From positions 1 through 43,275 of the forward strand of contig JAQBPO010000024.1 of NCBI GenBank assembly GCA_028287465.1: a stretch of 43,275 nt of DNA, read 5' to 3'. The notes below the pieces were generated by a model. It had not been told where the DNA came from, did no database searches, and saw nothing but the letters and a program-made list of their open reading frames with translations. Numbering within the stretch: the stretch's first letter is position 1; every line of letters starts with the position of its first letter. The translations under genes and the position numbers were made by a program. Of the stretch, positions 22,872-43,275 are shown one piece after another. The DNA is from Fibrobacterota bacterium. GTDB taxonomy: Bacteria; Fibrobacterota; Fibrobacteria; UBA11236.

Positions 22872-25409
22872 TCAGGGCTTCTTCCGGAATCGGAAGAAGC
22901 TGAGTAGACCCACGGTCAGGACCAGGCAAAACGCCAAGGCCTGATAAAAGCCAATGGGGGAGTAGACCATTTCCACGGTCTTCCCTCCTCCCACCAAAGG
23001 CATGGCCACGAAATGGTCGGCCGTTTCCTGGGGCAGGCCCCAGGCTCCCCCATCCACCCGGAAGCGCCATTCGGAACTGAACCGTTCCCGGATGATCAAG
23101 GTATCCCCAGGCGGAAAAGGACCCAGGATCCGGAAATCCCCGTCCCGAGGCTCTTGGACGCAAAGTCCCCCATAGCCGGAATAGCCGGCCGGGCATGCGG
23201 TCCGGTTGCGCGCGGACCGCGCTTCGGCATGTATCGGCCTAGGCGATTCGGCCTCTTCGGCCCTCAAATGGCTCGAGGTCTCGAGTCGCGGACGCCAATC
23301 CAGGATTTCAAAGGCGTTAACGGAGCCGAACCGGCCCAGGAGTTCGAGGGAATCGGTCTTGTAGGAGGTAAGGTCGCGGTTGCTGAACAGGTAGCGGGTG
23401 GACTTGCCCGCGGGCGTGAGCGCGGGATCCCATTTCCAGACCAGGGGAAGGTGGGCCGTTACATGGCGATAGCCGAATATGGCGTGGATGCCGCAGCTCA
23501 AGGCTTCCTTTTCGCGATCGATCAATCCGAAGTTCGCGACCGGATCATTGTGCATCCGCCACATCTCCAGGCCCGGGTATTCCAGGTAATGGGAGACGCG
23601 CCAGTACGGGGAGGTTTCCCGATCCAGGACCTGCGCCGTGGCCGGCGGGCGGCGGTAGAAATCGGCGGGAAACAGGTAGAAGTGATCCCAATGGATGCGG
23701 AGCAGATCGGCGAGCAGGACGGCGAAGAGCAGGACCACCCCAGGGCGCTGGAACCCGAAAAGCAGGCGGGAACGGGTGCCGGGATCGCCCGCGGCGGATG
23801 TACCGGCGCCGCTCCGCCGGCGGCCCGCCTGCCACCAAACGGCCAGGGCCGAGAGGGAAAGGAAGAGGGCATCCATGGAGCCGCGTCCGAGCAGGGCGGC
23901 CATCTTTTGACCATAATCCTTGGTCGGATCCAGCTTCTTGAAGGTCTGCACGAGGGCCAGGGCCGAATGGGCCGTTTCGGGCAGGTAACGGAGGGCGGCC
24001 AGGCCTCCGGCGAAGGCCAGGGCGGCGGCCGCGAATAATCCCGCCGCGCGCGCGCCGCGGGGATGGCCCAGCCAGCGTTGGAAGCCGTGGCCGGACAGGG
24101 CGGCCAGGGCGAGGACGAAGAGGATCAGGAAGCGCGCGGGCCGGCGGAAATTGTTGAACACGGGAACGTGGTAGAGGATCTGGCTCGCGCCCAGGTGCGC
24201 GCCGAAGGAAAGCCATAACCCGATCGCCCCCAGGATCCAGACCCAGCGCAGATCGCGGTTCGCGCGCCGGAACGAGGCGGAAAAGCAGAAGAACAGGCCC
24301 AGGCCGCCCAGATAGACGAAGACCTCGCCCCACACTTCCCCGCCCCACCAGGACCCGTTGGACGGGCTGCCCAGGGCATGCGGGGCCGCCAGGGAGAGCA
24401 GGTGGATGGGCCGCATGCCGCCGGTGGCGAACTTCTCGAACCCGAAAACCCCGGCTTCCAGTTTCTCGGCCGCGCCGGATTCCGCGGCCGCTTGGGCCTC
24501 GGCGGCGGTCGCCTTCTCCCCGGGCTTGCCGCCTTCCCAGGCTACGCCGTCGAAACGATCGGTCTGATCGATGAGGTGAAGGAAGGGAATCAGCATGGGT
24601 GAGCAATAGGCGAGGGCGAGGAAATGGCCGCCGACGATCCAGACCCAGGGTTTCCCGGCTGATCCCTTGGGTAACCTGCTTGGTACCTTATCGCCGGAGA
24701 CCCCGGCGGGCGCCGCGCCTCTCCCGAAGAAGGCCCGTAGGGTGAACGCGGCGATCAGGATGGCGGTGGTGACCGAGGCCTGGGGATGGCCGCCCAGGGC
24801 CTGCAGGGCGACGGCCCCGGCATACAGGAACAGGGTCCTGGGGCGGGGACGGTCGCGCAGGGCCAGGAAGGCGGCCAGGACCAGGGGCATCCAGGCCCAT
24901 CCGGAAAGGAAGGTAGCATGCTCGTAACGGGCCAGCATGGTACCGGAAAGGGAAAAGCAGATGCCCGCCCACAGGGAAGCGGTGCGGTGAAGGCCCAGGC
25001 GCGGGCCCAGCTTCAAGAAACCGTAAATGCCCAAGGCGAAGTGGAAGGCGTAGAAAAGGTAGATCCCGTAATGGGGCGACAAGGGCCCGAACAGGAGCCA
25101 GGTGACGGGATAGAGGTATCCCGATTGCCAATAAGCGTGCATGGGCATGCCGCATTGGTAACTCGAGCTCCAGAAGACCAGGGGGTGGCTCCAGGACCAG
25201 TTGCGGTGGAAGTCCCAGAAATAGCAGAAATACGCGACCAGCATGTCGTTGTTCAGGATCGGGCTGCCCTTGATCAGCACGGGCAGGACCGGCGACAGGC
25301 CGAGGACGGCGAGCAGGGAAATGATCGGCCAGCGCCGCCTTGGAGGCCGCGTAGGCGACGGAACGATTGTCACTTCGCAATTGTACGCTTCCGACCGTCG
25401 GAAAACCAT
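22872..25409 (-). CDS. YfhO-like large multi-pass membrane protein
   Basis: 845 residues. There is a first membrane helix (about 28-47), then an early periplasmic loop with the NDMLVAYFCYFWDF motif (acidic residues typical of GT-C-type glycosyltransferases). More than ten helices extend to about residue 590. A soluble domain then follows, and a last helix lies at the C-terminus (FYQALAFCLVLTVGLLSFFRF). The arrangement and motifs such as ASLWAGICFSLSGTMLARYEHATFLSGWAWMPLVLAAF resemble YfhO/PF09586 proteins, which add sugars to teichoic acids or other surface polymers in Firmicutes. The substrate here is unknown. A 10-bp perfect hairpin (22877-22900) overlaps the last codons but has no T-run. 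Confidence 0.75.
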   Translation of the reverse strand: MVFRRSEAYNCEVTIVPSPTRPPRRRWPIISLLAVLGLSPVLPVLIKGSPILNNDMLVAYFCYFWDFHRNWSWSHPLVFWSSSYQCGMPMHAYWQSGYLYPVTWLLFGPLSPHYGIYLFYAFHFALGIYGFLKLGPRLGLHRTASLWAGICFSLSGTMLARYEHATFLSGWAWMPLVLAAFLALRDRPRPRTLFLYAGAVALQALGGHPQASVTTAILIAAFTLRAFFGRGAAPAGVSGDKVPSRLPKGSAGKPWVWIVGGHFLALAYCSPMLIPFLHLIDQTDRFDGVAWEGGKPGEKATAAEAQAAAESGAAEKLEAGVFGFEKFATGGMRPIHLLSLAAPHALGSPSNGSWWGGEVWGEVFVYLGGLGLFFCFSASFRRANRDLRWVWILGAIGLWLSFGAHLGASQILYHVPVFNNFRRPARFLILFVLALAALSGHGFQRWLGHPRGARAAGLFAAAALAFAGGLAALRYLPETAHSALALVQTFKKLDPTKDYGQKMAALLGRGSMDALFLSLSALAVWWQAGRRRSGAGTSAAGDPGTRSRLLFGFQRPGVVLLFAVLLADLLRIHWDHFYLFPADFYRRPPATAQVLDRETSPYWRVSHYLEYPGLEMWRMHNDPVANFGLIDREKEALSCGIHAIFGYRHVTAHLPLVWKWDPALTPAGKSTRYLFSNRDLTSYKTDSLELLGRFGSVNAFEILDWRPRLETSSHLRAEEAESPRPIHAEARSARNRTACPAGYSGYGGLCVQEPRDGDFRILGPFPPGDTLIIRERFSSEWRFRVDGGAWGLPQETADHFVAMPLVGGGKTVEMVYSPIGFYQALAFCLVLTVGLLSFFRFRKKP

Positions 25410-28647: not shown

Positions 28648-29574
28648 TCAGTACCGGTTGTACCAGTAGAGCATGTTGTTTTCGTTTGCGCCCCAGAGGC
28701 CTCCCACGTCATCGGACTGGATTTCCGTCATTCCCTGAGCGCTGTTCGTATTCACGAAAGAGGCGCCGTCCCATTTGTAGACCGCGTATCCGCCCGTACG
28801 GATTTCACCGCTCAACAGGTAAAGTGCCCCGTTGCCGCCGGCCGTGATCTTTTTCCATTTTCTGTCATAGGCCAGGCGGGACCATACGCCGAGGGAGGTG
28901 CGTTTGAATACCTCGCCGATGCTGTTCACGCCGAAGAGGCTTCCATTTGCGTCGACATCGATATCCATCAATCCGCCCGGGATCAGGGTCCAGGAGGAAG
29001 AAGACGTCCCCGAGCCGCTGTACTGGTAGATGACATGCCCGCCGCCGCCGTTCGCGCCGTATACCGTGGCCTTGCCGAGCATGAAAATGGCGCCAGTGGG
29101 ACCGGCGGCGATCTTGCGGAAGTCGCTGCCGTTCTTGGGATAATAGTCCGGCGTGGTGACTTGGGCCCACGTGCCGCCGCCGGGAGCGAGAGGCGCGGTA
29201 TTGAAGAATACGCCCCCTTGATCGCTCGTCCCCCAAATCACATTCTTGAACGTTATATCCAAATCGACCAGGCCGCCCGGAATGACCGTGGCCGTGTTAT
29301 TGTAAATCCGCTTCAAGGCGTACCCGCCGACCGGCCTGGGAAAGATATTGGAGTCCAGGACGAACCCGCTATTGGCCAAGGTGCTGCCCGTGAAGGCCGG
29401 GAGGAATCCGGTGGCCTCGATAAAGGTCCACGAAGGGGTGGCGGTGAGGGCGGCGACGGGCGCCAGGGCGCCTTCATCGGATCGGGTAACGCTGGACCCG
29501 TCATTGAAGCAGCCGGTGAACAGGGCCGCGCCGGTGAGCAGGGCGGCGGGGAGGATGTATTTCGAAGCGGACAT
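28648..29574 (-). CDS. Tectonin-type beta-propeller lipoprotein, copy 1 of the array
   Basis: 308 residues. Signal peptide and lipobox LFTGC (Cys22). The mature part has propeller blades of 35-50 residues; the clearest is WTLIPGGLMDIDVDANGSLFGVNSIGEVFKR, matching the tectonin repeat pattern WxxIPGxxxxIxVxxxGxxxGVNxxGxxxxR. Tectonins in slime moulds and animals bind lipopolysaccharide or other glycans. It is probably an outer-membrane, outward-facing lectin-like protein, but that is inference. It is last of four similar genes read leftwards and lacks the 89-bp cassette on its downstream side. AAGGAG precedes the ATG. Confidence 0.82.
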   Translation of the reverse strand: MSASKYILPAALLTGAALFTGCFNDGSSVTRSDEGALAPVAALTATPSWTFIEATGFLPAFTGSTLANSGFVLDSNIFPRPVGGYALKRIYNNTATVIPGGLVDLDITFKNVIWGTSDQGGVFFNTAPLAPGGGTWAQVTTPDYYPKNGSDFRKIAAGPTGAIFMLGKATVYGANGGGGHVIYQYSGSGTSSSSWTLIPGGLMDIDVDANGSLFGVNSIGEVFKRTSLGVWSRLAYDRKWKKITAGGNGALYLLSGEIRTGGYAVYKWDGASFVNTNSAQGMTEIQSDDVGGLWGANENNMLYWYNRY

Positions 29575-29759: not shown

Positions 29760-30680
29760 TCAGGGGATGTAGCGGTAAAGGAGGTTGAGGTCGTTGGCGC
29801 CCCAAAGGCCTCCGCCGGCATCCACCTGGATTTCCTTCATCCCCTGGGCGCTGTTCGTGTTTACGAAGAAGGCCCCGTCCCATTTGTAGATGGTGTATCC
29901 GCCCGAACGCGCTTCGCCGCTCAGCACGTAATACTTTCCATTGCCGCAGGCGATCTTCTTCCACTTGGCATCATAGGCCAGGCGGGACCAGACGCCGGCC
30001 GCGGTCCGCTTGAACACCTCGCCGATGCTGTTCACGCCGAGCAGGTCCCCATTGTTGTCGACATCGATATCCATCAATCCGCCCGGGATCAGGGTCCAGG
30101 AGGAAGAGGACGTGCCCGAGCCGCTGTACTGGTAGATGACATGCCCGCCGCCGCCGTTCGCGCCGTATACCGTGGCCTTACCGAGCATGAAAACCGAGCC
30201 ATTGGATCCGGTGGCGATCTTGCGGAAGTCGCTGCCGTTCTTGGGATAATAGTCCGGGGTGGTGATCTGGGACCAGGTGCCGCCGCCCGGATTGATCGGC
30301 GTGGCATTCCGGAACACGCCGCCTTGATCGCTCGTCCCCCATATTTCATTGTTCCCCATGATGTCGAGATCGACCAGGCCTCCGGGAATGAGGGTGGAGG
30401 TGTTATTGACTATGCGCTTCAGGGCATAGCCGCCGACGGGCCTGGGGGAGTAGTTGGAATCCAAGACGAACCCGCTGTTCGAAGTGGTGATGCCCGTGAA
30501 GGCCGGGAGGAATCCGGATGATCCGATATAGCTCCAGGTGGCGGAGGCCGTAAGGGCCGCCGCGGGCGCTTGGGCGCCTTCATCGGATCCGGCAACGCTG
30601 GACCCGTCATTGAAGCAGCCGGTGAACAGGGCCGCGCCGGTGAGCAGGGCGGCGGGGAGGATGTGTTTCGAAGCGGACAT
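29760..30680 (-). CDS. Tectonin-type beta-propeller lipoprotein, copy 2 of the array
   Basis: 306 residues; lipobox LFTGC at Cys22. It is close to copies 1 and 3 over its entire length, and long stretches are nearly identical at the DNA level (for example around 30000-30180). The blade motif is WTLIPGGLMDIDVDNNGDLLGVNSIGEVFKR. It differs from copy 1 mainly in the blade at 60-115 and at the C-terminus (LLYRYIP). The leader contains a GGAGGC/GCCTCC hairpin just before the ribosome site, better formed than in copies 1 and 3. Confidence 0.82.
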   Translation of the reverse strand: MSASKHILPAALLTGAALFTGCFNDGSSVAGSDEGAQAPAAALTASATWSYIGSSGFLPAFTGITTSNSGFVLDSNYSPRPVGGYALKRIVNNTSTLIPGGLVDLDIMGNNEIWGTSDQGGVFRNATPINPGGGTWSQITTPDYYPKNGSDFRKIATGSNGSVFMLGKATVYGANGGGGHVIYQYSGSGTSSSSWTLIPGGLMDIDVDNNGDLLGVNSIGEVFKRTAAGVWSRLAYDAKWKKIACGNGKYYVLSGEARSGGYTIYKWDGAFFVNTNSAQGMKEIQVDAGGGLWGANDLNLLYRYIP

Positions 30681-30865: not shown

Positions 30866-31780
30866 TCAGGGGATGTAGATATAGATGTCGTTCGAGCTAT
30901 TGGCGCCCCAAAGGCGTCCGCGGTAATCCACCTGGATTTCAGTCATTCCCTGGAAGGTGTTCATATCCACGAAAGAGGTTCCGTTCCATTCGTAGATCGC
31001 GAACCCGCCCTGCCGGGCTTCGCCAAGCACATAATATTTTCCGTAGCCGCAGGCGATCTTCTTCCATTTGGGATCATAGGCCAGGCGGGACCAGACGCCG
31101 GCCGCGGTGCGCTTGAACACCTCGCCGATGCTGTTCACGCCGAGCAGGTCCCCATTGTCGTCGACATCGATATCCATCAATCCGCCCGGGATCAGGGTCC
31201 AAGAGTAAGAGGTAGTGCCTGAGCCGCTGTACTTGTAGAGGACATGCCCGCCGCCGCCGTTCGAGCCATAGACCATGGCCTTGCCCAGCATGAAAACGGA
31301 GCCATTGGATCCGGTGGCGATCTTGCGGAAGTCGTTTCCGTTCTTGGGAAAATAATCCGGGGTGGTGATCTGGGACCAGGTGCCGCCGTCCCCATTGAAT
31401 GCCGTGGCATTGCGGAATACGCCGCCCTTATTGCTTGTCCCCCAGATTATCTCTAGTCCCGTGATATCCAAATCGACCAGACCTCCGGGAATGATGGCGG
31501 TTCTGTCAGACTGTATCTGCCTCAAGGCATACCCTCCGACAGGCCTGGTAATCATGGAATCCAGGGTGAATCCCCAATACCCCAGTTGATCGCCAGAGAA
31601 GGCCGGCAGGAAGCCGAGGATGTGGGTATAGGACCAGGTGCCGGAGGCGGAGAGGGCGGCCGCGGGCGCCTGGGTATCTGCGGCGGACCCGGCAACCCCG
31701 GACCCGTCATTGAAGCAGCCGGTGAACAAGGCGGCGCCGGCGAACAGGGCGGCGGGCAGGATGAGTTTCGAAGCGGACAT
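30866..31780 (-). CDS. Tectonin-type beta-propeller lipoprotein, copy 3 of the array
   Basis: 304 residues from ATG 31780, which has AAGGAG upstream; a longer in-frame reading to 31861 runs into the terminator and is wrong. Lipobox LFTGC (Cys22). Blades are as in copies 1 and 2: WTLIPGGLMDIDVDDNGDLLGVNSIGEVFKR and ARQGGFAIYEWNGTSF. Parts are almost identical to copy 2 at the DNA level. Others diverge more (the first blade, around residues 60-90), which fits patchy gene conversion. Confidence 0.82.
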   Translation of the reverse strand: MSASKLILPAALFAGAALFTGCFNDGSGVAGSAADTQAPAAALSASGTWSYTHILGFLPAFSGDQLGYWGFTLDSMITRPVGGYALRQIQSDRTAIIPGGLVDLDITGLEIIWGTSNKGGVFRNATAFNGDGGTWSQITTPDYFPKNGNDFRKIATGSNGSVFMLGKAMVYGSNGGGGHVLYKYSGSGTTSYSWTLIPGGLMDIDVDDNGDLLGVNSIGEVFKRTAAGVWSRLAYDPKWKKIACGYGKYYVLGEARQGGFAIYEWNGTSFVDMNTFQGMTEIQVDYRGRLWGANSSNDIYIYIP

Positions 31781-31938: not shown

Positions 31939-32823
31939 TCAGAGTTGGCAGTAATAGGTGATGGATTGGTTGCTTGAGCCCCAGAGCCTGCCTCCGGCAT
32001 CGATGTTGAGATGATCAAGGTTCCCCGGAATGGATTTCCAACCCGAATACGTCCACTGCATAAGGGTATTTCCCTTTCCGCCGAACACATTGGTGATGGC
32101 TGCGATCTTGCCTCCGCCGGCTGAAATCTCGGTGGCGCCGTATTGGCTGAAATCCCCTTCGCCGACCCAATTCGGGCTTCCGGCCGGAAGCCGGAAGGCC
32201 CAGGCGTTGTTGCTGATTACCCACAGATCCCCGTTCGAATCGTAATCCAAATCGATTCCGGCGCCGATGATGTCCACCCAGGTTTTGTTCCAGGCGGAAT
32301 AGACCTGGATCCCGTATCCCCCGGTCTTGACCTCGTTGGTCAGGATGGCGATGTTCCCCACGCCATTCACTCCGATGCGGCGCGCTCCTTTGGGAGGAGT
32401 CGGCAAATCGCTCCAGGTCGATCCCTTCAGGACCGCTATCCGTCCCGTACCGGCCTGGAGCATGTAGAAGTCCCACAGGGAGGCATCCATGTCGGCGAAG
32501 TTCGTGAACGGCGGTTGGTACTTCCGAATGGTTCCGGTAGGCCCATGCCATACCAGGGGAGTGGCCGGAATGACGGGGTAGTTGAAGGAAAAGGTATACC
32601 CGGATCGTTTGTCGGTCGAGTAATCATATTCCAGGGTCGGCGTTATGCAGCCGGAACAGTATTGGTACCAGGTGATTGCGGACGCGGTGACCGCCGCCGT
32701 CGTCAGGGTCGACGGCTTTGGTTCATCGCCGTCCGTAGTGGCGTCGTTCTGGAACAGGCAGCCGGAAAAGGCGAGGCCGCCGGCCATGCACAATGCGGAT
32801 AAAAGGTTCGTTTTCGAATTCAT
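31939..32823 (-). CDS. Divergent tectonin-type lipoprotein, copy 4 of the array
   Basis: 294 residues from ATG 32823 (AAGGAA upstream). Lipobox AFSGC (Cys22). The overall plan matches the other three: Ser/Thr-rich linker, an N-terminal WYQYCSGCITPT... part with extra cysteines, then propeller blades such as VDIIGAGIDLDYDSNGDLWVISNNAWAFRL and KSIPGNLDHLNIDAGGRLWGSSN. Sequence identity to copies 1-3 is low. It is first in the array, 382 bases from ssb. Confidence 0.78.
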   Translation of the reverse strand: MNSKTNLLSALCMAGGLAFSGCLFQNDATTDGDEPKPSTLTTAAVTASAITWYQYCSGCITPTLEYDYSTDKRSGYTFSFNYPVIPATPLVWHGPTGTIRKYQPPFTNFADMDASLWDFYMLQAGTGRIAVLKGSTWSDLPTPPKGARRIGVNGVGNIAILTNEVKTGGYGIQVYSAWNKTWVDIIGAGIDLDYDSNGDLWVISNNAWAFRLPAGSPNWVGEGDFSQYGATEISAGGGKIAAITNVFGGKGNTLMQWTYSGWKSIPGNLDHLNIDAGGRLWGSSNQSITYYCQL

Positions 32824-33829: not shown

Positions 33830-35038
33830 ATGCATGCGGAAACGCATAAGGAAAGCACCCTCCGGACCCCACTGGGCAAGATGAAAAATAGAAAAAATCA
33901 GGTCTCCCTTCCCATTGATAGATTGGCAAAAATCTGGCCGCGCGATCTCAAAAACGCCCGGATCGGCGCCGTCCTCCATCCCGCCTCGGTTTCGGCCTCT
34001 TTGGTCCATTCCAGCGATATCCTGAAATCCCATGACGGCGATCTGTTCCGGCTGAAAGCCCTCTTCGGGCCCCAGCACGGCTATCTGGGCCAGACCCAGG
34101 ACAACATGATCGAATGGCAGGGTTTCAAGCACCCGCAATGGGGCGTTCCCGTGTACAGCCTGTACGGCGAGCATCGCGAACCGTCCCCGGAAATGCTGCA
34201 GGGCCTGGACGTTATCCTCATCGACATGCAGGACGTGGGCGCGCGGTATTACACCTTCATCTGGACCCTATACCTGTGCATGAAGGCGGCGGAAAAGGCC
34301 GGCATCCATGTGGTTGTGCTGGAGCGGCCCAATCCCATCGACGGCGTGACGGTGGAAGGGCCGCTGCTGGATCCGGAATACCGCTCCTTCGTAGGCCTCC
34401 ATCCCATCCCCGCGCGCCATGGCAAGACCATCGGGCAATTGGCCGGGCAATTCAAACGGGAAGCCTTCCCCAAGTGCGCCCTGACCGTTCTGGACATGGA
34501 AGGCTGGGATCCGGCCATGTATTTCGAGGAGACCGGCCTCCCCTGGGTGCTGCCTTCCCCGAACATGCCCACGGTGGACACGGCGGTGGTGTACCCGGGC
34601 ATGTGCCTGCTCGAAGCGACCAATATGTCGGAAGGGCGCGGCACAACCAAGCCCTTCGAGCTCTTCGGCGCGGGATTCATCGTCGACGCCCGGGATTTCA
34701 CGGACAAGCTGAACAAGCTGGGCCTGCCCGGGGTCTTCTTCCGCGAGGCCTATTTCCAACCCACCTTCCACAAGTTCCAGGGCAAGTTGTGCGGCGGCGC
34801 GCAGTTCCACGTTACGGATCGGAAAACCTTCCTTCCGTACCGGAGCACGGTGGAGATGATCAACCTGGTCCGCCGGGAGTATCCGGACTTCCGCTGGAAG
34901 GCCCCGCCCTATGAATACGAGCTCAAGAAGCTGCCCATCGAAATCCTGATCGGCGGGCCGGTGGATTCGGCTTTCCCTGGACCGGCGACGGCCACCGTGG
35001 AGATAAATCCCCAAGCCCCGCACGCCGCCTCGAAGTAA
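33830..35038 (+). CDS. namZ: DUF1343/NamZ-like exo-beta-N-acetylmuramidase
   Basis: 402 residues if ATG 33830 is used, 385 from ATG 33881; neither has a clear ribosome site. The DUF1343 (PF07075) blocks are clear: KALFGPQHGYLGQTQDNMIEW, VPVYSLYG, IDMQDVGARYYTFIWTLYLCMKAAEKAG, LERPNPIDG and SPNMPTVDTAVVYPGMCLLEATNMSEGRGTTKPFELFGAGF. Characterised members release MurNAc from the non-reducing ends of peptidoglycan chains. No signal peptide is visible, so it may act in the cytoplasm on recycled fragments. One base separates it from a nucleotidyltransferase gene that could use MurNAc-phosphate. Confidence 0.88.
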   Translation: MHAETHKESTLRTPLGKMKNRKNQVSLPIDRLAKIWPRDLKNARIGAVLHPASVSASLVHSSDILKSHDGDLFRLKALFGPQHGYLGQTQDNMIEWQGFKHPQWGVPVYSLYGEHREPSPEMLQGLDVILIDMQDVGARYYTFIWTLYLCMKAAEKAGIHVVVLERPNPIDGVTVEGPLLDPEYRSFVGLHPIPARHGKTIGQLAGQFKREAFPKCALTVLDMEGWDPAMYFEETGLPWVLPSPNMPTVDTAVVYPGMCLLEATNMSEGRGTTKPFELFGAGFIVDARDFTDKLNKLGLPGVFFREAYFQPTFHKFQGKLCGGAQFHVTDRKTFLPYRSTVEMINLVRREYPDFRWKAPPYEYELKKLPIEILIGGPVDSAFPGPATATVEINPQAPHAASK

Positions 35039-35039
35039 C

Positions 35040-35939
35040 ATGTCGGATACCCTGTCCGCCTTCTTCCTCTGCGCGGGATACGGCAAGCGCCTGCGTCCCC
35101 TCACCGACCGCGTGCCCAAGCCCGCCATCACCTTCCAGGGCCGCACCGCCCTGGAAATCAATTTCAAGCGGGCCCAGCCCCTATTCCCCAACCGCATCCT
35201 GTGCAATACCCATCACCTGTACGCGGAGATGGAGAAGCCGGCCCAGCGCCTGGGCATGAACATCCTTTTCGAACCGGAGATCCTGGGCACGGGCGGATGC
35301 ATCTGGAACGCGAAGCATATCCTGGAGACCACGGACCGGTTCCTGGTCCACAACGGCGATCTGATCCATACCATCGATCTGAAGGACATGATGGCGCGCC
35401 ACAAGGCCTCGGGCGATATCGCGACCCTGGCGGGGATCTTCCGGCCCACCCACAATACCCTGAGCGTGCACGAGGACGGCAAGCTCCTGGGCGTGCATGG
35501 CTTCGAGGGCTTTTCGCCCGCGGGGGGCGAGATGGCGCGGCTGACCTTCGCCGGCATCGCGATCTACGATCGGGCCTTCCTGGACTTCGCGCGACCGGGC
35601 TGCGAGGACATCAAGCCCTATTGGACCGCGGCCCTGCGCGCCGGGCATACCATCGGCGTGGCCAACTACAGCCATGACGCGGCCTGGTACGATTTCGGGA
35701 CGCCCCAGGGCCTATGGGAGGCCGCGCGCTTCTACATGGACCTGACCAAGAACTACAGCTACGGCTACGCTCCCGATATGCGGGAGTCGCGGCCGTTCGT
35801 GTCGAACGAAGCGAGCGTGGAAGGGTTGCCGGAGGCGTTGCGGGACGTTCTGATCTTCGAGGAATCCGCGACGCCCATCGCCCACCATACCATGAACCAG
35901 ATCATCGGGCGGGATTTCCGCTGGCCGATCAGGCCCTAG
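35040..35939 (+). CDS. Sugar-1-phosphate nucleotidyltransferase, MurU-like
   Basis: 299 residues. The nucleotide-binding signature is FFLCAGYGKRLRPLTDRVPKP (from residue 8), and later LGTGGCIWNAKHIL, VHNGDLIHTID and WYDFGTPQGLWEAARFY fit NTP-transferases. The closest role I can suggest is MurU, which makes UDP-MurNAc from MurNAc-1-phosphate in the cell-wall recycling route. This is because it starts one base after a namZ homologue. Mannose-1-phosphate guanylyltransferase is an alternative. It is about 75 residues longer than Pseudomonas MurU, from a C-terminal extension. The kinase AmgK, its usual partner, is not in the window. Confidence 0.75.
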   Translation: MSDTLSAFFLCAGYGKRLRPLTDRVPKPAITFQGRTALEINFKRAQPLFPNRILCNTHHLYAEMEKPAQRLGMNILFEPEILGTGGCIWNAKHILETTDRFLVHNGDLIHTIDLKDMMARHKASGDIATLAGIFRPTHNTLSVHEDGKLLGVHGFEGFSPAGGEMARLTFAGIAIYDRAFLDFARPGCEDIKPYWTAALRAGHTIGVANYSHDAAWYDFGTPQGLWEAARFYMDLTKNYSYGYAPDMRESRPFVSNEASVEGLPEALRDVLIFEESATPIAHHTMNQIIGRDFRWPIRP

Positions 35940-35966: not shown

Positions 35967-38900
35967 TCAGAAATTCGATGAACTCCCTCCGGGAGCCCTC
36001 GGATGGGGCCCAGGCGTGTATTGGAGAGTCGTATACCAGATGCGATGCTTCTCGTCCGTTGCCCATGTCACACCGCTGGGAGAAATCTGGATGGACGCGA
36101 ATCCGGCCGACTCCAGAGGCATCATGAAGGCCCAACCGGTACTGGTCCAGGCTTGCAGGATATATGAGGTTGCCGTCAAACACAATGTCCTCCCGGAACC
36201 GACGGCCAGGTTGTTGCCCACCGTTTCGGAGGCATCCGACATCGGGGCCCAGTACATCAAGGGATCGTTACCGTGCATGTAAAAGGCGGCCATCCGGGAG
36301 GTCACGCCCCATAAATCGCCATTGTCATCCGCATCGATATCGATGAACCCTCCCGGAACGACGATCCAATTCGCGTTGTCGATCCGTTTCATGACCCGGA
36401 ATCCTCCCGTGACGGCCTCCTTGGTGAGGGCATAGACCAGGCTCGGATCGCCGGAATTTACTCCCCGCGCGGCCGCGATCTTGGAGAACTGGATGGATGG
36501 GACCGCGCTACCGGCCTGCCAGGCCGAGCCGGAGTTGCAGGCATCCGGATTGAAAAAGACCGTGCCGGAATCGGTCACGGCCCATACTTCGCAATCCCTT
36601 CCCTCGTCGATGTCGACGAAGCGTTTGGCGATGAGGGTGGATTGCCCATTGGCGAACCACCGCACCGCGAAGCCGCCAACGCCGCGAGCCGTATTGTCCA
36701 AAGCGTACCCGTTGGGGATGGCGGAGCCGCTGAAGGCCACGACGTCGCCCGGGGAGTCGAGGTAAACCCATTGGCCGGAAGTGGAGGGAGGGGATGGCGG
36801 GACCGGGGGAACGGGAACGGCGGCCGGGTCCGCATCGGGATTCGGGTTCAGCGGGGGCGTCGCAAGGGCGGTTCCGGGGTTCCAGCGGGTGACGCTCCCG
36901 TCCGCTTTCGCGATCCAGGGATTGCCGGATGGATCGAGGTCCACGACCGCCGCGCCGATGGCGATTTGGATCCAGGCTGCGCCGTTCCAGGACCAGACCG
37001 TGGAACCGCCCGTAACATTGACGGTACCGACCTTGTAGATTGCCCCGCCCGTACCTGCATCGATATCCCTGGCGGAACCGGGCTTGGCTTCCCAAGCGGT
37101 GCCGGTCCATTGCTTGATCTCGCCCGTGGACGTGACGACCCAGGGAAAGCCTTTCCTGTCCACCGCGATGCGGACGCCGGACGCGCCGGGGAACAAGGTC
37201 CAACCCGACCCAGTCCATTTATAGACCGGATGGTCCTGGGCACCGGCCGTCTTGACCAGGCCATAGACGTCGTTGACGCCATTGACCCCGATGTCGAGGA
37301 ACTGCTTGCCTTGTTCGCGCCCGACCCAGCCGGTATTGTTGAAATAGCAAAGGGCTCCAGCGCTATTGGCCACCCAGGCGTTCCCGGCGGCGTCGACGTC
37401 CAAGGTCACGGCGGCTCCCGCCACCGGAACCCATTGGCCATTGAGTCCCGACTTCCGGTAGATGGTCTTTCCCCCCGCCGGCGCATCGGTAGTGGATAGG
37501 ACCCATGCGGTGATGTTCCCTTCGACTCCGCCCGCCCCGATGGCCGAGGCTGAAACGGCTTCCGGCAACCAACCGCCCGGGATGGGCGCGGGCGGATCCG
37601 GGGGAGGAAGGGCGGGATCGGGAATCCGGCTATAGACATTGCCCGGGAGATTAGCAATCCAAGGGTTTCCGGCAGGATCCACGTCTATGGCGGTGCCTCC
37701 ACCCATGATCGGGCTCCAGCCGCTTCCGTTCCAGAGGGAAACCGTGCCTCCTCCCGGAACGTTATCCGCGCCCACGATGTACACGCGCCCATCGGAGCCG
37801 GCGCCGATATCCCTCGCGGCGCCGGACAAGTTTTCCCAAGCGGTCCCGGTCCACCGCTTGATCGCTCCCGTCGAGGCGACCACCCAGGGGTTGCCATTGT
37901 TATCGACCGTAATCCGCGTTCCCGACGCCCCCGGGAACGGGCTCCAGACCGATCCCGTCCATTTGTAGACGGGATGATCCGCCGCGCCCGCGGCCTTTAC
38001 GAGTCCGAATACGTTGGTCATTCCGCTCACGCCGATATCCACGAATTGCTTGCTCTGTTCGCGCCCGACCCAGGCGGTATAGTTGTAGTAGAAAAGCGTG
38101 CCCAGGCTGCTGACGACCCAGGCATTGCCCGCGGCGTCCACGTCCACGGCCACGGAGGCTCCCGGAATCAAGGTCCATTGGCCGCCGGCTCCCGCTCTCC
38201 TGTAAATGGTTTTCCCTCCCACCGGGGCATCGGTGGTGGAAATCGCCCAGGCGGTGATGTTAGCGGCGGTTCCCCCGACCCCGATATCGCTGGCGAAGGC
38301 GTTTTCCGACCGCCAGCCCTCCGGCATCGGAACGGGAACCTGAACCGCAGCCGGGGATACCGTACCGGCCGGAGCCAGGGTGCCGGTGAAAATAGAAGCG
38401 AGGTCATCGAGACGCCAGGGATTCCCGCCCGGTCCCACGTCGATGGACTTTCCGCCTCCGGGAACGCGCCTCCAGTCGCTTCCGTTCCATAAGGCGACCG
38501 CCTGTCCGCCCGCTACGGTGGCATTCTCGAGTATGTAGACCGAACCGTCCGGTCCCGCCCCGATGTCGGTCGCGGAACCGGGCAAGGTCTCCCAGGCCGT
38601 TCCATTCCAACGTTGGACGGCGAAGGCGGAGTTGACGATCCAGGGATTGCCGAAGTTGTCGACGGTAACGCGGGTGGCCCCGCCGCTGGGGAACGCAACC
38701 CAGGCCGAACCGGTCCACTTGAGGATCTGGAAACCCGCTCCCGATGCCGTCTGGCTCACGCCGAATACGCTGCCTTCCGATCCGGCCCCGATGTCCAGGA
38801 ATTTCCTGCCCTGTTCGCGTCCCACCCAGGCGGTGGTGTAATAGAAGAGAGCGCCCGCATTGTTGATGACCCACGGGTACCCGTCCTTGTCCACGTCCAC

Positions 38901-39947
38901 GCGCACCGCGCCGCCGGGGACGAGGGTCCAGGAGGTTCCGGACCGTTTGAATATCTGATACCCGCCGGTCGTGGCCGCCGATCCGATGATCCAGGCGGCA
39001 CCGTTGGCTCCCACGCCCACGTCCAGGGCCTTTCCAGCGATCGCGGTCCAGAAGGACGGATACATGGCGGCGACCCCGCCGATATCGCCGGTCGAAAGCG
39101 CGGTGCGCTGCGCCGGCCAGGTGGATCCGTCCGAGACCTTGGTCATGGTCGGCTTGGAGGGATCGATCGCCGCGGCATAGGAACCGTCCATCATGATGGA
39201 AGCGAAATCCAGGGCCCCGAAATCCGTGCCGTCCAGGGGAGCCGGAGCGCGCAGGACGTTATTGAACGCGTAGAACCGACCGCGTTGGGTTTCGGGGACG
39301 TTATTGAAGTCGATGGCGATGGAACCGGCCTGATCGGACCGGCATTGCTCATGATACAGGCCGATGGCGTGGCCGATCTCATGGATGGCGTTGCCTTCGC
39401 CGCAACCCCCGTCCAGGTTGATGATCTGCTTTCCGCCCGTACGCCCGATGCCGCCGGAAAAGCAGCCGTCGCCTTCGACGCTCTGGAATTCCACGTAGTC
39501 GGGATGGCCCGATAGGGCTGGCGACCATTGCACGAATCGTATCGATGAGTTCGCTTCCCAATGCGCGATGGCGGCCTTGGCGGCGGGCGCGCCTGTAAAG
39601 GCGGGGTCAAAGCGATAGTAGACGATGTTATTGATCCACCTGGAGGACCCGAGGGCCCGGCCAACGGAAGCCTCCTTGCCCAACGGGGGGGCGGCCAGCA
39701 ACCCTTCTTCCGGAAACACTATGTCCCCGCCCACCACGGCAAGGCCATCGATCTCCCGGTACTCCACGGGTTGGCCGAAGAGGAAGCCGTTTTTCACCGG
39801 ACCGCTTCGTCCCGGGAAGGCTTGTTCGAACCCGCCGTTCGCCTTAGCCGCGGACCCCGCTGTTCCTGAATCCTTTTCCGCCACATTGCAATGCTGCAAT
39901 GCCAACGGGATTACCATCCATCCAATCCATGCGAATCTTGCCTTCAT
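35967..39947 (-). CDS. Astacin-like metalloprotease with four tectonin-type propeller modules
   Basis: 1326 residues. The N-terminal hydrophobic segment ends LALQHC (Cys20), a non-standard lipobox. The pro-region (about 30-95) is followed by the M12A catalytic domain with HEIGHAIGLYHEQ (His189, Glu190, His193, His199) and a Met-turn SIMM at 250-253. The usual Tyr after the Met-turn is Asp254. Four repeat modules follow at about 306-525, 548-770, 797-1022 and 1058-1326, split by Pro-rich linkers. Modules 2 and 3 are very similar. Module 4 resembles the stand-alone lipoproteins of the array. Typical blade: WTLVPGGAVRVDVDKDGYPWVINNAGALFYY. It is probably exported and surface-bound; substrates and glycan ligands are unknown. 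Confidence 0.85.
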   Translation of the reverse strand: MKARFAWIGWMVIPLALQHCNVAEKDSGTAGSAAKANGGFEQAFPGRSGPVKNGFLFGQPVEYREIDGLAVVGGDIVFPEEGLLAAPPLGKEASVGRALGSSRWINNIVYYRFDPAFTGAPAAKAAIAHWEANSSIRFVQWSPALSGHPDYVEFQSVEGDGCFSGGIGRTGGKQIINLDGGCGEGNAIHEIGHAIGLYHEQCRSDQAGSIAIDFNNVPETQRGRFYAFNNVLRAPAPLDGTDFGALDFASIMMDGSYAAAIDPSKPTMTKVSDGSTWPAQRTALSTGDIGGVAAMYPSFWTAIAGKALDVGVGANGAAWIIGSAATTGGYQIFKRSGTSWTLVPGGAVRVDVDKDGYPWVINNAGALFYYTTAWVGREQGRKFLDIGAGSEGSVFGVSQTASGAGFQILKWTGSAWVAFPSGGATRVTVDNFGNPWIVNSAFAVQRWNGTAWETLPGSATDIGAGPDGSVYILENATVAGGQAVALWNGSDWRRVPGGGKSIDVGPGGNPWRLDDLASIFTGTLAPAGTVSPAAVQVPVPMPEGWRSENAFASDIGVGGTAANITAWAISTTDAPVGGKTIYRRAGAGGQWTLIPGASVAVDVDAAGNAWVVSSLGTLFYYNYTAWVGREQSKQFVDIGVSGMTNVFGLVKAAGAADHPVYKWTGSVWSPFPGASGTRITVDNNGNPWVVASTGAIKRWTGTAWENLSGAARDIGAGSDGRVYIVGADNVPGGGTVSLWNGSGWSPIMGGGTAIDVDPAGNPWIANLPGNVYSRIPDPALPPPDPPAPIPGGWLPEAVSASAIGAGGVEGNITAWVLSTTDAPAGGKTIYRKSGLNGQWVPVAGAAVTLDVDAAGNAWVANSAGALCYFNNTGWVGREQGKQFLDIGVNGVNDVYGLVKTAGAQDHPVYKWTGSGWTLFPGASGVRIAVDRKGFPWVVTSTGEIKQWTGTAWEAKPGSARDIDAGTGGAIYKVGTVNVTGGSTVWSWNGAAWIQIAIGAAVVDLDPSGNPWIAKADGSVTRWNPGTALATPPLNPNPDADPAAVPVPPVPPSPPSTSGQWVYLDSPGDVVAFSGSAIPNGYALDNTARGVGGFAVRWFANGQSTLIAKRFVDIDEGRDCEVWAVTDSGTVFFNPDACNSGSAWQAGSAVPSIQFSKIAAARGVNSGDPSLVYALTKEAVTGGFRVMKRIDNANWIVVPGGFIDIDADDNGDLWGVTSRMAAFYMHGNDPLMYWAPMSDASETVGNNLAVGSGRTLCLTATSYILQAWTSTGWAFMMPLESAGFASIQISPSGVTWATDEKHRIWYTTLQYTPGPHPRAPGGSSSNF

Positions 39948-40115: not shown

Positions 40116-41669
40116 TCAGTAATAGACACCCTGGTCGGTGCCGACCACCCAGGGATTGCCGCCCGGGCCGATGTCGACGGCCGAGGCCATGCCGGCTACG
40201 CTTGTCCAGTCCAGGCCGTTCCAGATCATGGTCGTATAATTCTGCGCCGTCGCATACTTGCTGACCATGAAGACCGTACCCTCCGGACCGCAGCCGATGT
40301 CCTTGGCCAGCCCCGGCATGGGGGTCCAGGACGATCCATTCCAGCGCAGGACTTTCCCGTCCACGTCTACCATCCAGGCCATTCCGTTCCCGTCCACGCT
40401 GATGCGGGCGCCGCCGCCCGGCATGAGGACCCAATCGCTTCCGTTCCACCGGTAGGGCTTGCCCCCTCCCGTGATGGCCTCATCGCTGATGGCCCATACC
40501 GTTCCGTCGCCGCCGATGCCGATGTCCTTGAAGGACCTGCCGCGCTCGCGGCCCACCCAGGAGGTCCCGTTCCAGGAACAGATCCTCCCCGCGTCGGTGA
40601 CGACCCAGGCGTTACCGGCGGGATCGACATCGAGCTTGACCGCGCCCCCGGGGATGTTGACCCAGGACGTTCCCGAGAGCCGGTGGATCGTTCCGCCTCC
40701 GGTGGTGGCGTTGGTGGAAATCATCCATCCCGTCCCGTTCGCGCCCACGCCGATATCCATGGCGGGGGGAGTGGAGCCGAGGTTGATCCAGATGCTGGGA
40801 TACATGCGCAGAACCCCGCGGACGTCCCCGGAGGAAATGACGCTGGAGGCGCCCCAGGTGGAGTTGTCCAGTTTGCGCATGACGGCAATCGAGGGATCGA
40901 TGGCAATGGCCGGGTCGCCGATAAACGATGGGTACATCATGATGGAAGTGAAATCCATTCCCAGGTCGTCGAAGCCGTCCTCATTCTGCGCGGCATAGGT
41001 CGCGAAATTGAACCTCGCGCTCATCTTGATGTTGCCGTAATTGACGGTGATCCATTTGGCCTGGTCCCGCCTGCATTGCTCATGCCATAGCCCCAAGGTA
41101 TGCCCGATTTCATGGATGGCCGAGGCGGTATTGCATCCGGAACCGATATTGACGAATACCTGCCCTGGGTTCATCCCCACCGGAGAGCTGCACCCGGTTC
41201 CGCCATTGTCCGCGAAGGTGACATGGTTGTTCGGGTTGCCGTATTCCCATCGCACGAAGCGGACATAGGTCTTCGCTTCCCAGGCCTTGATGGCGTCGAA
41301 GACCCGATATTGGTCCTTCATGGTTTCCGAGACGTTGTAATAGACGACGTCGTTGGGCCAGCGATAGCTCAGGTTCGAGCGTCCGGTGCTCGCATCCTTG
41401 GAAAGGCCCGGGGGCGCCGACGGATCCGGGGTGAGGAGGATGTCCCCCTGGAAGACGGCCTTCCCATCGATTTCCAGGTACTGGATGGAGTCCCCGTTGA
41501 GGGTCCCTTGCCGTACCGTTCCTTCCCGGCCGGGGAAGGCGATTTCCACCGGCCGATCCTTTGCGATTTCCCCCGTAGCCGGTGCATTCGCCAACGGGTC
41601 CGCGTTCATGCAGTTCTGCAGCGCGAACGGCAGCGCCGCCAAAGCCATCCAACCCAATTTACCCTTCAT
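40116..41669 (-). CDS. Astacin-like metalloprotease with one tectonin-type propeller
   Basis: 517 residues. The N-terminus MKGKLGWMALAALPFALQNC matches the larger neighbour and ends at Cys20 with the same odd LQNC box. The pro-region is followed by the catalytic domain: HEIGHTLGLWHEQ (His186, Glu187, His190, His196) and Met-turn SIMMY (242-246), with the Tyr retained, so all usual zinc ligands are present. The propeller (about 285-517) has about six blades, for example WVNIPGGAVKLDVDPAGNAWVVTDAGRICSW. It has a good AAGGAT ribosome site. It lies 168 bases upstream of the larger paralogue on the same strand, and the two may be co-transcribed. Confidence 0.87.
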   Translation of the reverse strand: MKGKLGWMALAALPFALQNCMNADPLANAPATGEIAKDRPVEIAFPGREGTVRQGTLNGDSIQYLEIDGKAVFQGDILLTPDPSAPPGLSKDASTGRSNLSYRWPNDVVYYNVSETMKDQYRVFDAIKAWEAKTYVRFVRWEYGNPNNHVTFADNGGTGCSSPVGMNPGQVFVNIGSGCNTASAIHEIGHTLGLWHEQCRRDQAKWITVNYGNIKMSARFNFATYAAQNEDGFDDLGMDFTSIMMYPSFIGDPAIAIDPSIAVMRKLDNSTWGASSVISSGDVRGVLRMYPSIWINLGSTPPAMDIGVGANGTGWMISTNATTGGGTIHRLSGTSWVNIPGGAVKLDVDPAGNAWVVTDAGRICSWNGTSWVGRERGRSFKDIGIGGDGTVWAISDEAITGGGKPYRWNGSDWVLMPGGGARISVDGNGMAWMVDVDGKVLRWNGSSWTPMPGLAKDIGCGPEGTVFMVSKYATAQNYTTMIWNGLDWTSVAGMASAVDIGPGGNPWVVGTDQGVYY

Positions 41670-41973: not shown

Positions 41974-43275
41974 ATGGATTTCCTTATGACCCCGCAAGGG
42001 CGTTACACCATACTTGGGGAAATAGCCTCTGGGGGAACGGCCACGGTCTTCCTGGCCGAGGACATCGTATTGCGCCGGAAGGTCGCTCTCAAGAAATTGC
42101 ATCCGCACCTGCTCAATCATCCGGAAATGGTAAAGCGCTTCGAAAAGGAGGCGGTGGCCGTGGCGTCCTTGTCGCACGAGAACGTGGTCAAGATCTTCGA
42201 CTTCGGTCGCGAAGACAAGAGCGTGTTCCTGGCCATGGAGTACGTGGACGGCTCCTCCCTGGATTCCATCCTGAAGGGATCCGACGGACGCATTCCCAAC
42301 CTGGCCGCCCTGTGCCTTTTCCACCAGCTGCTCGCAGGCCTGGCCGCGGCCCATGCCTGCGGCATCTTCCATCGGGACATAAAGCCCTCCAATGTGCTGG
42401 TCGATCGGAAGGGTTGCGTCCGCATCGCCGACTTCGGGATCGCCTTCCTTTCCGAGGACACGTCCATCACGCGGACGGGCGCCTACCTGGGCACCCCCGG
42501 CTATTCCGCTCCGGAGCAGGCGGTCGGGCGACCGGTCACGGCGAAGACCGACATCTACGCAACGGGCACCCTCTTCTACCGCTGCCTGACGGGCAGGCTT
42601 CCGTTCGCGGGGGAAACGCCCCATGCGGTGCTCATGGCCATCGTCGAGAAGACCCAGGTCAAGGCCAACCTGGTGAACCCGCGCATCCTTCCCGGACTCG
42701 CGGATCTGGTCCAGGACATGCTCGCGAAATCACCGGCCAAACGCCCGGATGCGTTGGAGTGCGCACGGCGCCTTGAAAAGATCGCCGTCGACGCCGGGTT
42801 CCCGCTCGACCCCGCCAGGCTCTGCCGGATGACGGCGGGTGCGTCCGCCTATGCGGAAAAGGAGCGCAAGGAGTTGGCGGCGCGCTTCGTGGAGCAGGCC
42901 CGCCTCATGGAAACCCAGGGCAAGACGCGCGAAGCCATGAAGCGCTATTCCCTGGCGGAGATCTTCACCGAAAAAAACGATGAACAGGCCAGGGAAGCCG
43001 GCCGCCACCTGCGCATGGGCACGGCAACCTCCCTGCGGCGCGGCGCCGCAGCCTTAGCGGCCATCGCGCTGTTGGCCTTTGGAATCCGCCTTGCGGTGAA
43101 GACCTCCCGGGAAGCGGAACCGGACGCGCCGAAGGCGGGAAAGGAACTTACCGCCGCCGTTTCCGCGCCGGCGACGGCCGCGGAGTCCCTGGAACTGCCC
43201 TCCCTGGTGCCCGAATGGCCGGAAGGCGACGCCCGGACCGGGATCGGGAATGGAACCTTTTCCGACGCGACCGCC
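41974..43275 (+). CDS. Transmembrane Ser/Thr protein kinase (PknB-like), 3' end outside window
   Basis: Open to the window edge, 434 codons visible. The kinase domain is complete: Gly loop GEIASGGTATVFLAED, VALKK with Lys40, HRDIKPSN (133-140), DFG at 153 (IADFGIAF), activation-segment GTPGYSAPEQ, and TDIYATGTLFYRCLTGRLPF. It should be an active eukaryotic-like kinase. A helical, charged region (about 285-350) may be TPR-like, followed by a membrane helix (about 355-372) and an Ala/Pro-rich outer part that is cut. ATG 41974 or ATG 41986 could be the start. It is divergent from the astacin gene, and a regulatory link is possible but unproven. Confidence 0.93.
   Translation, partial: MDFLMTPQGRYTILGEIASGGTATVFLAEDIVLRRKVALKKLHPHLLNHPEMVKRFEKEAVAVASLSHENVVKIFDFGREDKSVFLAMEYVDGSSLDSILKGSDGRIPNLAALCLFHQLLAGLAAAHACGIFHRDIKPSNVLVDRKGCVRIADFGIAFLSEDTSITRTGAYLGTPGYSAPEQAVGRPVTAKTDIYATGTLFYRCLTGRLPFAGETPHAVLMAIVEKTQVKANLVNPRILPGLADLVQDMLAKSPAKRPDALECARRLEKIAVDAGFPLDPARLCRMTAGASAYAEKERKELAARFVEQARLMETQGKTREAMKRYSLAEIFTEKNDEQAREAGRHLRMGTATSLRRGAAALAAIALLAFGIRLAVKTSREAEPDAPKAGKELTAAVSAPATAAESLELPSLVPEWPEGDARTGIGNGTFSDATA

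Follow-up and report, generated by a model that had tools for sequence, protein, structure and literature searches.

Astacins are zinc endopeptidases, and the astacin peptidases (PF01400, MEROPS M12A) share their zinc motif and full domain with a 1326-aa protease that we analysed in an uncultured Fibrobacterota. Against the LegP model NF045530, this protease scores 157.3 bits, below the 300-bit cut-off, and does not qualify as a LegP equivalog; LegP is named as an injected Legionella effector, whereas the 1326-aa protease instead carries, as judged from its sequence, a putative export signal and C-terminal propellers. Astacin–tectonin proteases of the same genus (559 aa in G003:C62, 566 aa in G000:C43 and a fragment in G005:C195) show the same order of astacin then tectonin, but they have one propeller where the present protease has four, lack the module of the lipoprotein clade described below and possess clear lipobox cysteines (ALMGC, AILGC and FLGGC). 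The G003 protease is encoded at the site syntenic with ours, and the 566-aa protease (L034:7631-9331, lipobox ALMGC) elsewhere in the genome analysed here. Our literature search found no paper mentioning both 'tectonin' and 'astacin'.

For the propellers, the closest described system is tectonin-2 of Laccaria bicolor (Lb-Tec2; PDB 5fsb/5fsc), which binds O-methylated fucose/mannose (PMC6272156, PMC5238581). Structure prediction, one of the checks proposed in a first-pass annotation of the locus, was performed for the C-terminal propeller of the protease (C module; pLDDT 79.5, pTM 0.81) and for lipB, a free lipoprotein encoded nearby (pLDDT 83.1, pTM 0.80). The two AlphaFold models share tectonin-2 as their best match, with Z 25.6 and an rmsd of 2.1 over 214 residues for the module and Z 25.9 and 1.9 over 212 residues for lipB. 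Both models, which are not independent because the predictor alignments contain both modules, thus have a predicted six-bladed tectonin-like fold (TMt 0.79–0.86, Z >25). LipB also matches tectonin-2 in sequence (5.6e-10). Identity to tectonin-2 is nevertheless only 15–25%, and Asp stands in two blades in place of the Arg of most bacterial tectonins. The second fold match is fish-egg lectin (PDB 4ruq/4rus), an animal lectin, at Z 23.7 for both models but only 14–16% identity, and designed and other six-bladed propellers reach Z of about 22.5 and below.

Layout of the locus and domain make-up of the protease

The window, by which we mean the whole stretch of DNA that was analysed, is an entire 43,275-base contig of a 5.8 Mb genome. 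The following features are considered:

28648..29574, minus strand: lipA, free tectonin lipoprotein of 308 aa, lipobox ...LFTGC (Pfam Tectonin 5.1e-13)
29760..30680, minus strand: lipB, free tectonin lipoprotein of 306 aa (Pfam Tectonin 8.8e-13; model; best fold match 5fsc)
30866..31780, minus strand: lipC, free tectonin lipoprotein (Pfam Tectonin 2.7e-15)
31939..32823, minus strand: lipD, more divergent free lipoprotein of the same clade (tree 97/95; own profile match)
35967..39947, minus strand: 1326-aa astacin (M12A) protease (Pfam Astacin and Tectonin; HExxHxxGxxHE)
35970..36776, minus strand: C module (residues 1058-1326), a six-bladed tectonin propeller that is divergent and belongs to the lipoprotein clade (BLASTP, trees, model)
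36612..36614, minus strand: Asp1112, first Asp-for-Arg position common to the module and lipA–C (column comparison)
36339..36341, minus strand: Asp1203, second Asp-for-Arg position common to the module and lipA–C (column comparison)
40116..41669, minus strand: 517-aa protease combining a second astacin domain with a single tectonin propeller (Pfam Astacin 3.1e-31, Tectonin 1.6e-18)

The likely starts of lipC (MSASKLIL at 31780) and lipD (MNSKTN at 32823) lie within longer listed open reading frames, which extend to 31861 and 33054, respectively. LipA–D are separated from the 1326-aa protease by an SSB gene on the minus strand and by two plus-strand genes (33830-35939), one for a NamZ-type exo-beta-N-acetylmuramidase and, directly after it, one for a nucleotidyltransferase. 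The order of these two is kept in all six genus genomes seen, and we would guess that they form a muropeptide recycling pair. The window also contains an 845-aa open reading frame without a Pfam match (22872-25409, minus strand), which is conserved in the genus (66–70% in G002 and G003, 56% in G004), and an open reading frame leaving the contig end (41974-43275, plus strand), whose homologue in G004 is a PEGA-domain-containing Ser/Thr protein kinase.

In the 1326-aa protease, the astacin domain (residues 103–296; Pfam PF01400, 4.4e-26) contains the HExxHxxGxxHE zinc motif of the active site at residue 189, and Tectonin repeats are matched by Pfam PF19193 (2e-35). The propellers comprise p1 (~297-549), p2 (~550-789), p3 (~790-1045) and the C module; p1–p3 are ordinary Tectonin propellers and the fourth is divergent. 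All motifs quoted in the first-pass annotation are indeed present in the 1326-aa open reading frame. The whole protease (122.7 bits) and lipA–C (48.6–56.9 bits) exceed the PF19193 gathering score of 30, whereas lipD remains below it (12.9 bits, E 0.076). Because all modules and lipoproteins belong to or resemble PF19193, the term 'propeller' may be narrowed down to 'six-bladed tectonin'. We further observed that p2 and p3 (residues 550-1045) are internal duplicates with 61% residue identity and a dS of 1.3, and that Ala or Thr replaces the Arg of the Arg-type blade of p1 in p2/p3. The signal cysteines of the two proteases in the window (LALQHC in the 1326-aa and FALQNC in the 517-aa protein) follow a residue −1 that is not G/A/S, and lipid anchoring of the 1326-aa protease is uncertain because of this non-canonical lipobox.

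Gene order around the locus is conserved across the genus, and neighbouring genes share 83–90% identity with their orthologues in G002 and G003, the sister genomes closest to ours. The interval from the nucleotidyltransferase (35939) to the kinase near 41974 (L131, L132) is a hotspot of differing tectonin genes: two proteases in the window, one astacin–tectonin protease plus two free tectonin lipoproteins in G003, and two free tectonin lipoproteins in G004. The free lipoproteins of G003 and G004 belong to other sub-clades than lipA–D, and the astacins at the syntenic site are only 41–44% identical to that of G003. Within the stretches read, no tectonin gene was present beside the nucleotidyltransferase in G001, G002 and G005, and none was present at the lipA–D site beside the SSB gene in G002 or G003.

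Similarity and divergence of the C module and the free lipoproteins

The first-pass annotation had claimed that the C module is homologous to the stand-alone lipoproteins, and this holds beyond general tectonin likeness in alignments, shuffled controls, trees and shared residues. In pairwise BLASTP alignment, the similarity of the module to lipA–C exceeds that to any other tectonin module compared: it reaches 87 bits with lipB (28.9% over 270 columns), 77 bits with lipA and 72 bits with lipC, in each case over nearly the full length and at 27–29% identity, while the match to lipD is partial (50 bits). Its own upstream propellers score 40 (p1), 35 (p2) and 32 bits (p3), and 65 tectonin modules of other loci from many phyla score 47 bits at best, with a median of 29. 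We therefore regard the module as a divergent tectonin, the only close partners of which are the neighbouring lipoproteins. In absolute terms, 72–87 bits are ordinary for two tectonins, the between-locus median being 68 bits; the peculiarity is that a divergent module has its best partners only next door. The reverse comparison is weaker. Beyond lipA–C themselves, the module is the best partner of lipA (79 bits) and lipB (89 bits), but the ordinary tectonin L056 scores 69 and 76 bits with them, and for lipC the module and an ordinary tectonin are tied (72.4 vs 73.2 bits).

The signal is unevenly distributed along the module. In shuffled controls, its residues 1–95 reach z 17–20 with lipA–C and do not exceed 6 with the remaining modules, whereas residues 96–269 resemble lipD, ordinary tectonins and lipC to about the same degree. 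The module and lipA–C have in common, at 17 columns, a residue that is present in <15% of other modules; Asp1112, Asp1203, Gly1074, Asp1084 and Leu1212 are identical in all four and occur in 0–5% of other modules. At the columns of Asp1112 and Asp1203, 76% and 86% of other tectonin modules carry Arg, respectively, and none carries Asp. LipD also has Asp in the second of these Asp-for-Arg blades.

The divergence is nonetheless large. Module and lipoproteins differ at 68–73% of residues, while neighbouring genes retain their 83–90% identity to G002 and G003, which points either to an early separation or to very rapid evolution. Given the low identity of the syntenic astacins to that of G003, rapid evolution or turnover of genes is credible. 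In a global alignment, the module and lipB are 32% identical (dN 0.77, pS 0.63), and the p2/p3 duplication is intermediate between this value and that of the neighbouring genes; recent gene conversion between the module and lipB was rejected at a nucleotide identity of only 48%. LipA–C are duplicates with dS 0.39–0.47, lower than the window–G002 dS of 0.56–0.75 at neighbouring genes, and may therefore have multiplied after the window–G002 split.

These values bear on the strongest alternative, to which we assign a substantial but minority share of belief: module and lipoproteins would stem from a common tectonin sub-family older than the genus, or would have been acquired horizontally when already fused and free, without exchange within the locus. 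Both the high residue difference amid well-conserved neighbouring genes and the module–lipB pS, set against lipA–C duplicates whose dS is below that of the window–G002 split, are compatible with it. Against it, members of the sub-clade were found neither in 166 other phylum genomes, where only partial ordinary-tectonin matches occur outside the window, nor in a scan covering 84,980 species (profile A1, genome contigs). Viral contigs (profile A1) and phages yielded none, and plasmids yielded one ordinary tectonin only. Among ~395 genomes of the phylum of G168, no member was present; the single tectonin lipoprotein detected there, L144, was rejected as a candidate and is ordinary (p1 147 bits vs lipB 56). 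The ~395 genomes of the phylum of G169 gave no match, but no positive control matched either, so this sample shows little. These scans rest on short patterns or samples. Since no other genome searched yielded a member of the clade, and since tectonin genes at this site evolve or turn over fast, a local origin is possible.

Phylogenetic placement and direction of the fusion

A maximum-likelihood tree of 62 rows groups the module with lipA–C (98/90) and then with lipD (97/95), whereas p1–p3 form a clade with the propeller of the 517-aa protease (99/81), which the propellers of the G003 and G005 astacins join (98/85). The tree of modules proposed as a further check thus places the module with lipA–D and apart from p1–p3. 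A trimmed set of 41 rows, which leaves out the longest branches and lipD, retains the module with lipA–C at 100/98. In split trees, the last two thirds suffice to recover the module with lipA–D (95/95), and the first third by itself yields no supported set containing the module, although lipA–C are the rows nearest to it. A mosaic module that owes only its first third to the lipoproteins is disfavoured, because the last two thirds group with them as well.

In the best 62-row tree, the fused module sits between two free branches, lipD and lipA–C, and a transition from free to fused therefore needs fewer changes. The converse, in which the free lipoproteins originated as copies of the C module that left the fusion and gained a lipoprotein signal, appears improbable: the branching of module, lipD and lipA–C is not firmly resolved, as the AU test does not reject a clade of lipA–D that excludes the module (p 0.23), but the best tree points the other way, and free tectonin lipoproteins, though of other sub-clades, also occur in G003 and G004. 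We give equally little credence to the C module being an old, fast-evolving duplicate of p1–p3 that resembles the lipoproteins by convergence or long-branch attraction, since, although module and lipD are both long branches meeting in one tree and the AU test on 62 rows does not reject a grouping with p1–p3 (p 0.127), the trimmed set does reject it (p 0.005, to be read together with the former value because the 41 rows were chosen after the first test), and the 72–87 bits to lipA–C against 32–40 to p1–p3, the z of 17–20 of the first 95 residues with lipA–C only and the common Asp-for-Arg in two separate blades argue against it.

The first-pass annotation had concluded that a module was moved between the protease fusion and free lipoproteins within the locus. 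This conclusion is only partly supported: movement within the locus is possible on this evidence, and a clade found in this genome only fits a local origin, but the trees and divergence values settle neither the direction nor the time of the fusion.

A tethered protease and free lectins: proposed explanation

With its domain make-up, sub-clade and predicted fold established, the 1326-aa protein is most likely a surface-anchored astacin with glycan-holding propellers, the last of which derives from the lectin family of the free lipoproteins. We hold the full explanation with moderate confidence. The protein would be a zinc endopeptidase of the astacin type that is exported and probably anchored by a lipid, with four six-bladed tectonin propellers arrayed after the astacin domain on proline-rich linkers. 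Whereas p1–p3 would have arisen through duplication of the one propeller that astacin–tectonin proteases of the genus usually have, the fourth would have another source, the tectonin sub-clade common to lipA–D; it most likely descends from a free lipoprotein gene, or from an ancestor shared with one, that became joined to the protease gene at its 3' end. As putative glycan-binding modules, the propellers may keep the protease on a glycan-bearing surface, for which the cell's own envelope, a substrate or a neighbour cell are candidates, and the free lipoproteins would display this kind of propeller with no protease attached, possibly for a common ligand.

The glycan binding may, however, have changed or been lost: tectonins conserve 84 columns, of which the module retains only 32 and lipA–C about 37. 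That the module and the lipoproteins bind the same or related targets, as the first-pass annotation had suggested, is a guess at this divergence, and a predicted fold common to module and lipB is no proof of a common ligand. A bolder and, in our view, unlikely scenario is that a genome-restricted tectonin sub-family, charge-reversed in two blades (Asp for Arg) and addressing a new class of ligand, arose here, multiplied in the form of free lipoproteins at the surface and was taken over by the protease next to it, with enzyme and free lectins acting on one target.

Fibrobacterota are best known for breaking down plant polysaccharides. The present locus is a well-supported, if modest, example of domains being shuffled within a known family, in which a lectin-type propeller is common to a protease fusion and to free lipoproteins of one locus, beside a site where three of six genus genomes carry differing tectonin genes. 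If the common glycan binding were true, a protease of Fibrobacterota would share its aiming module with separate surface lectins.
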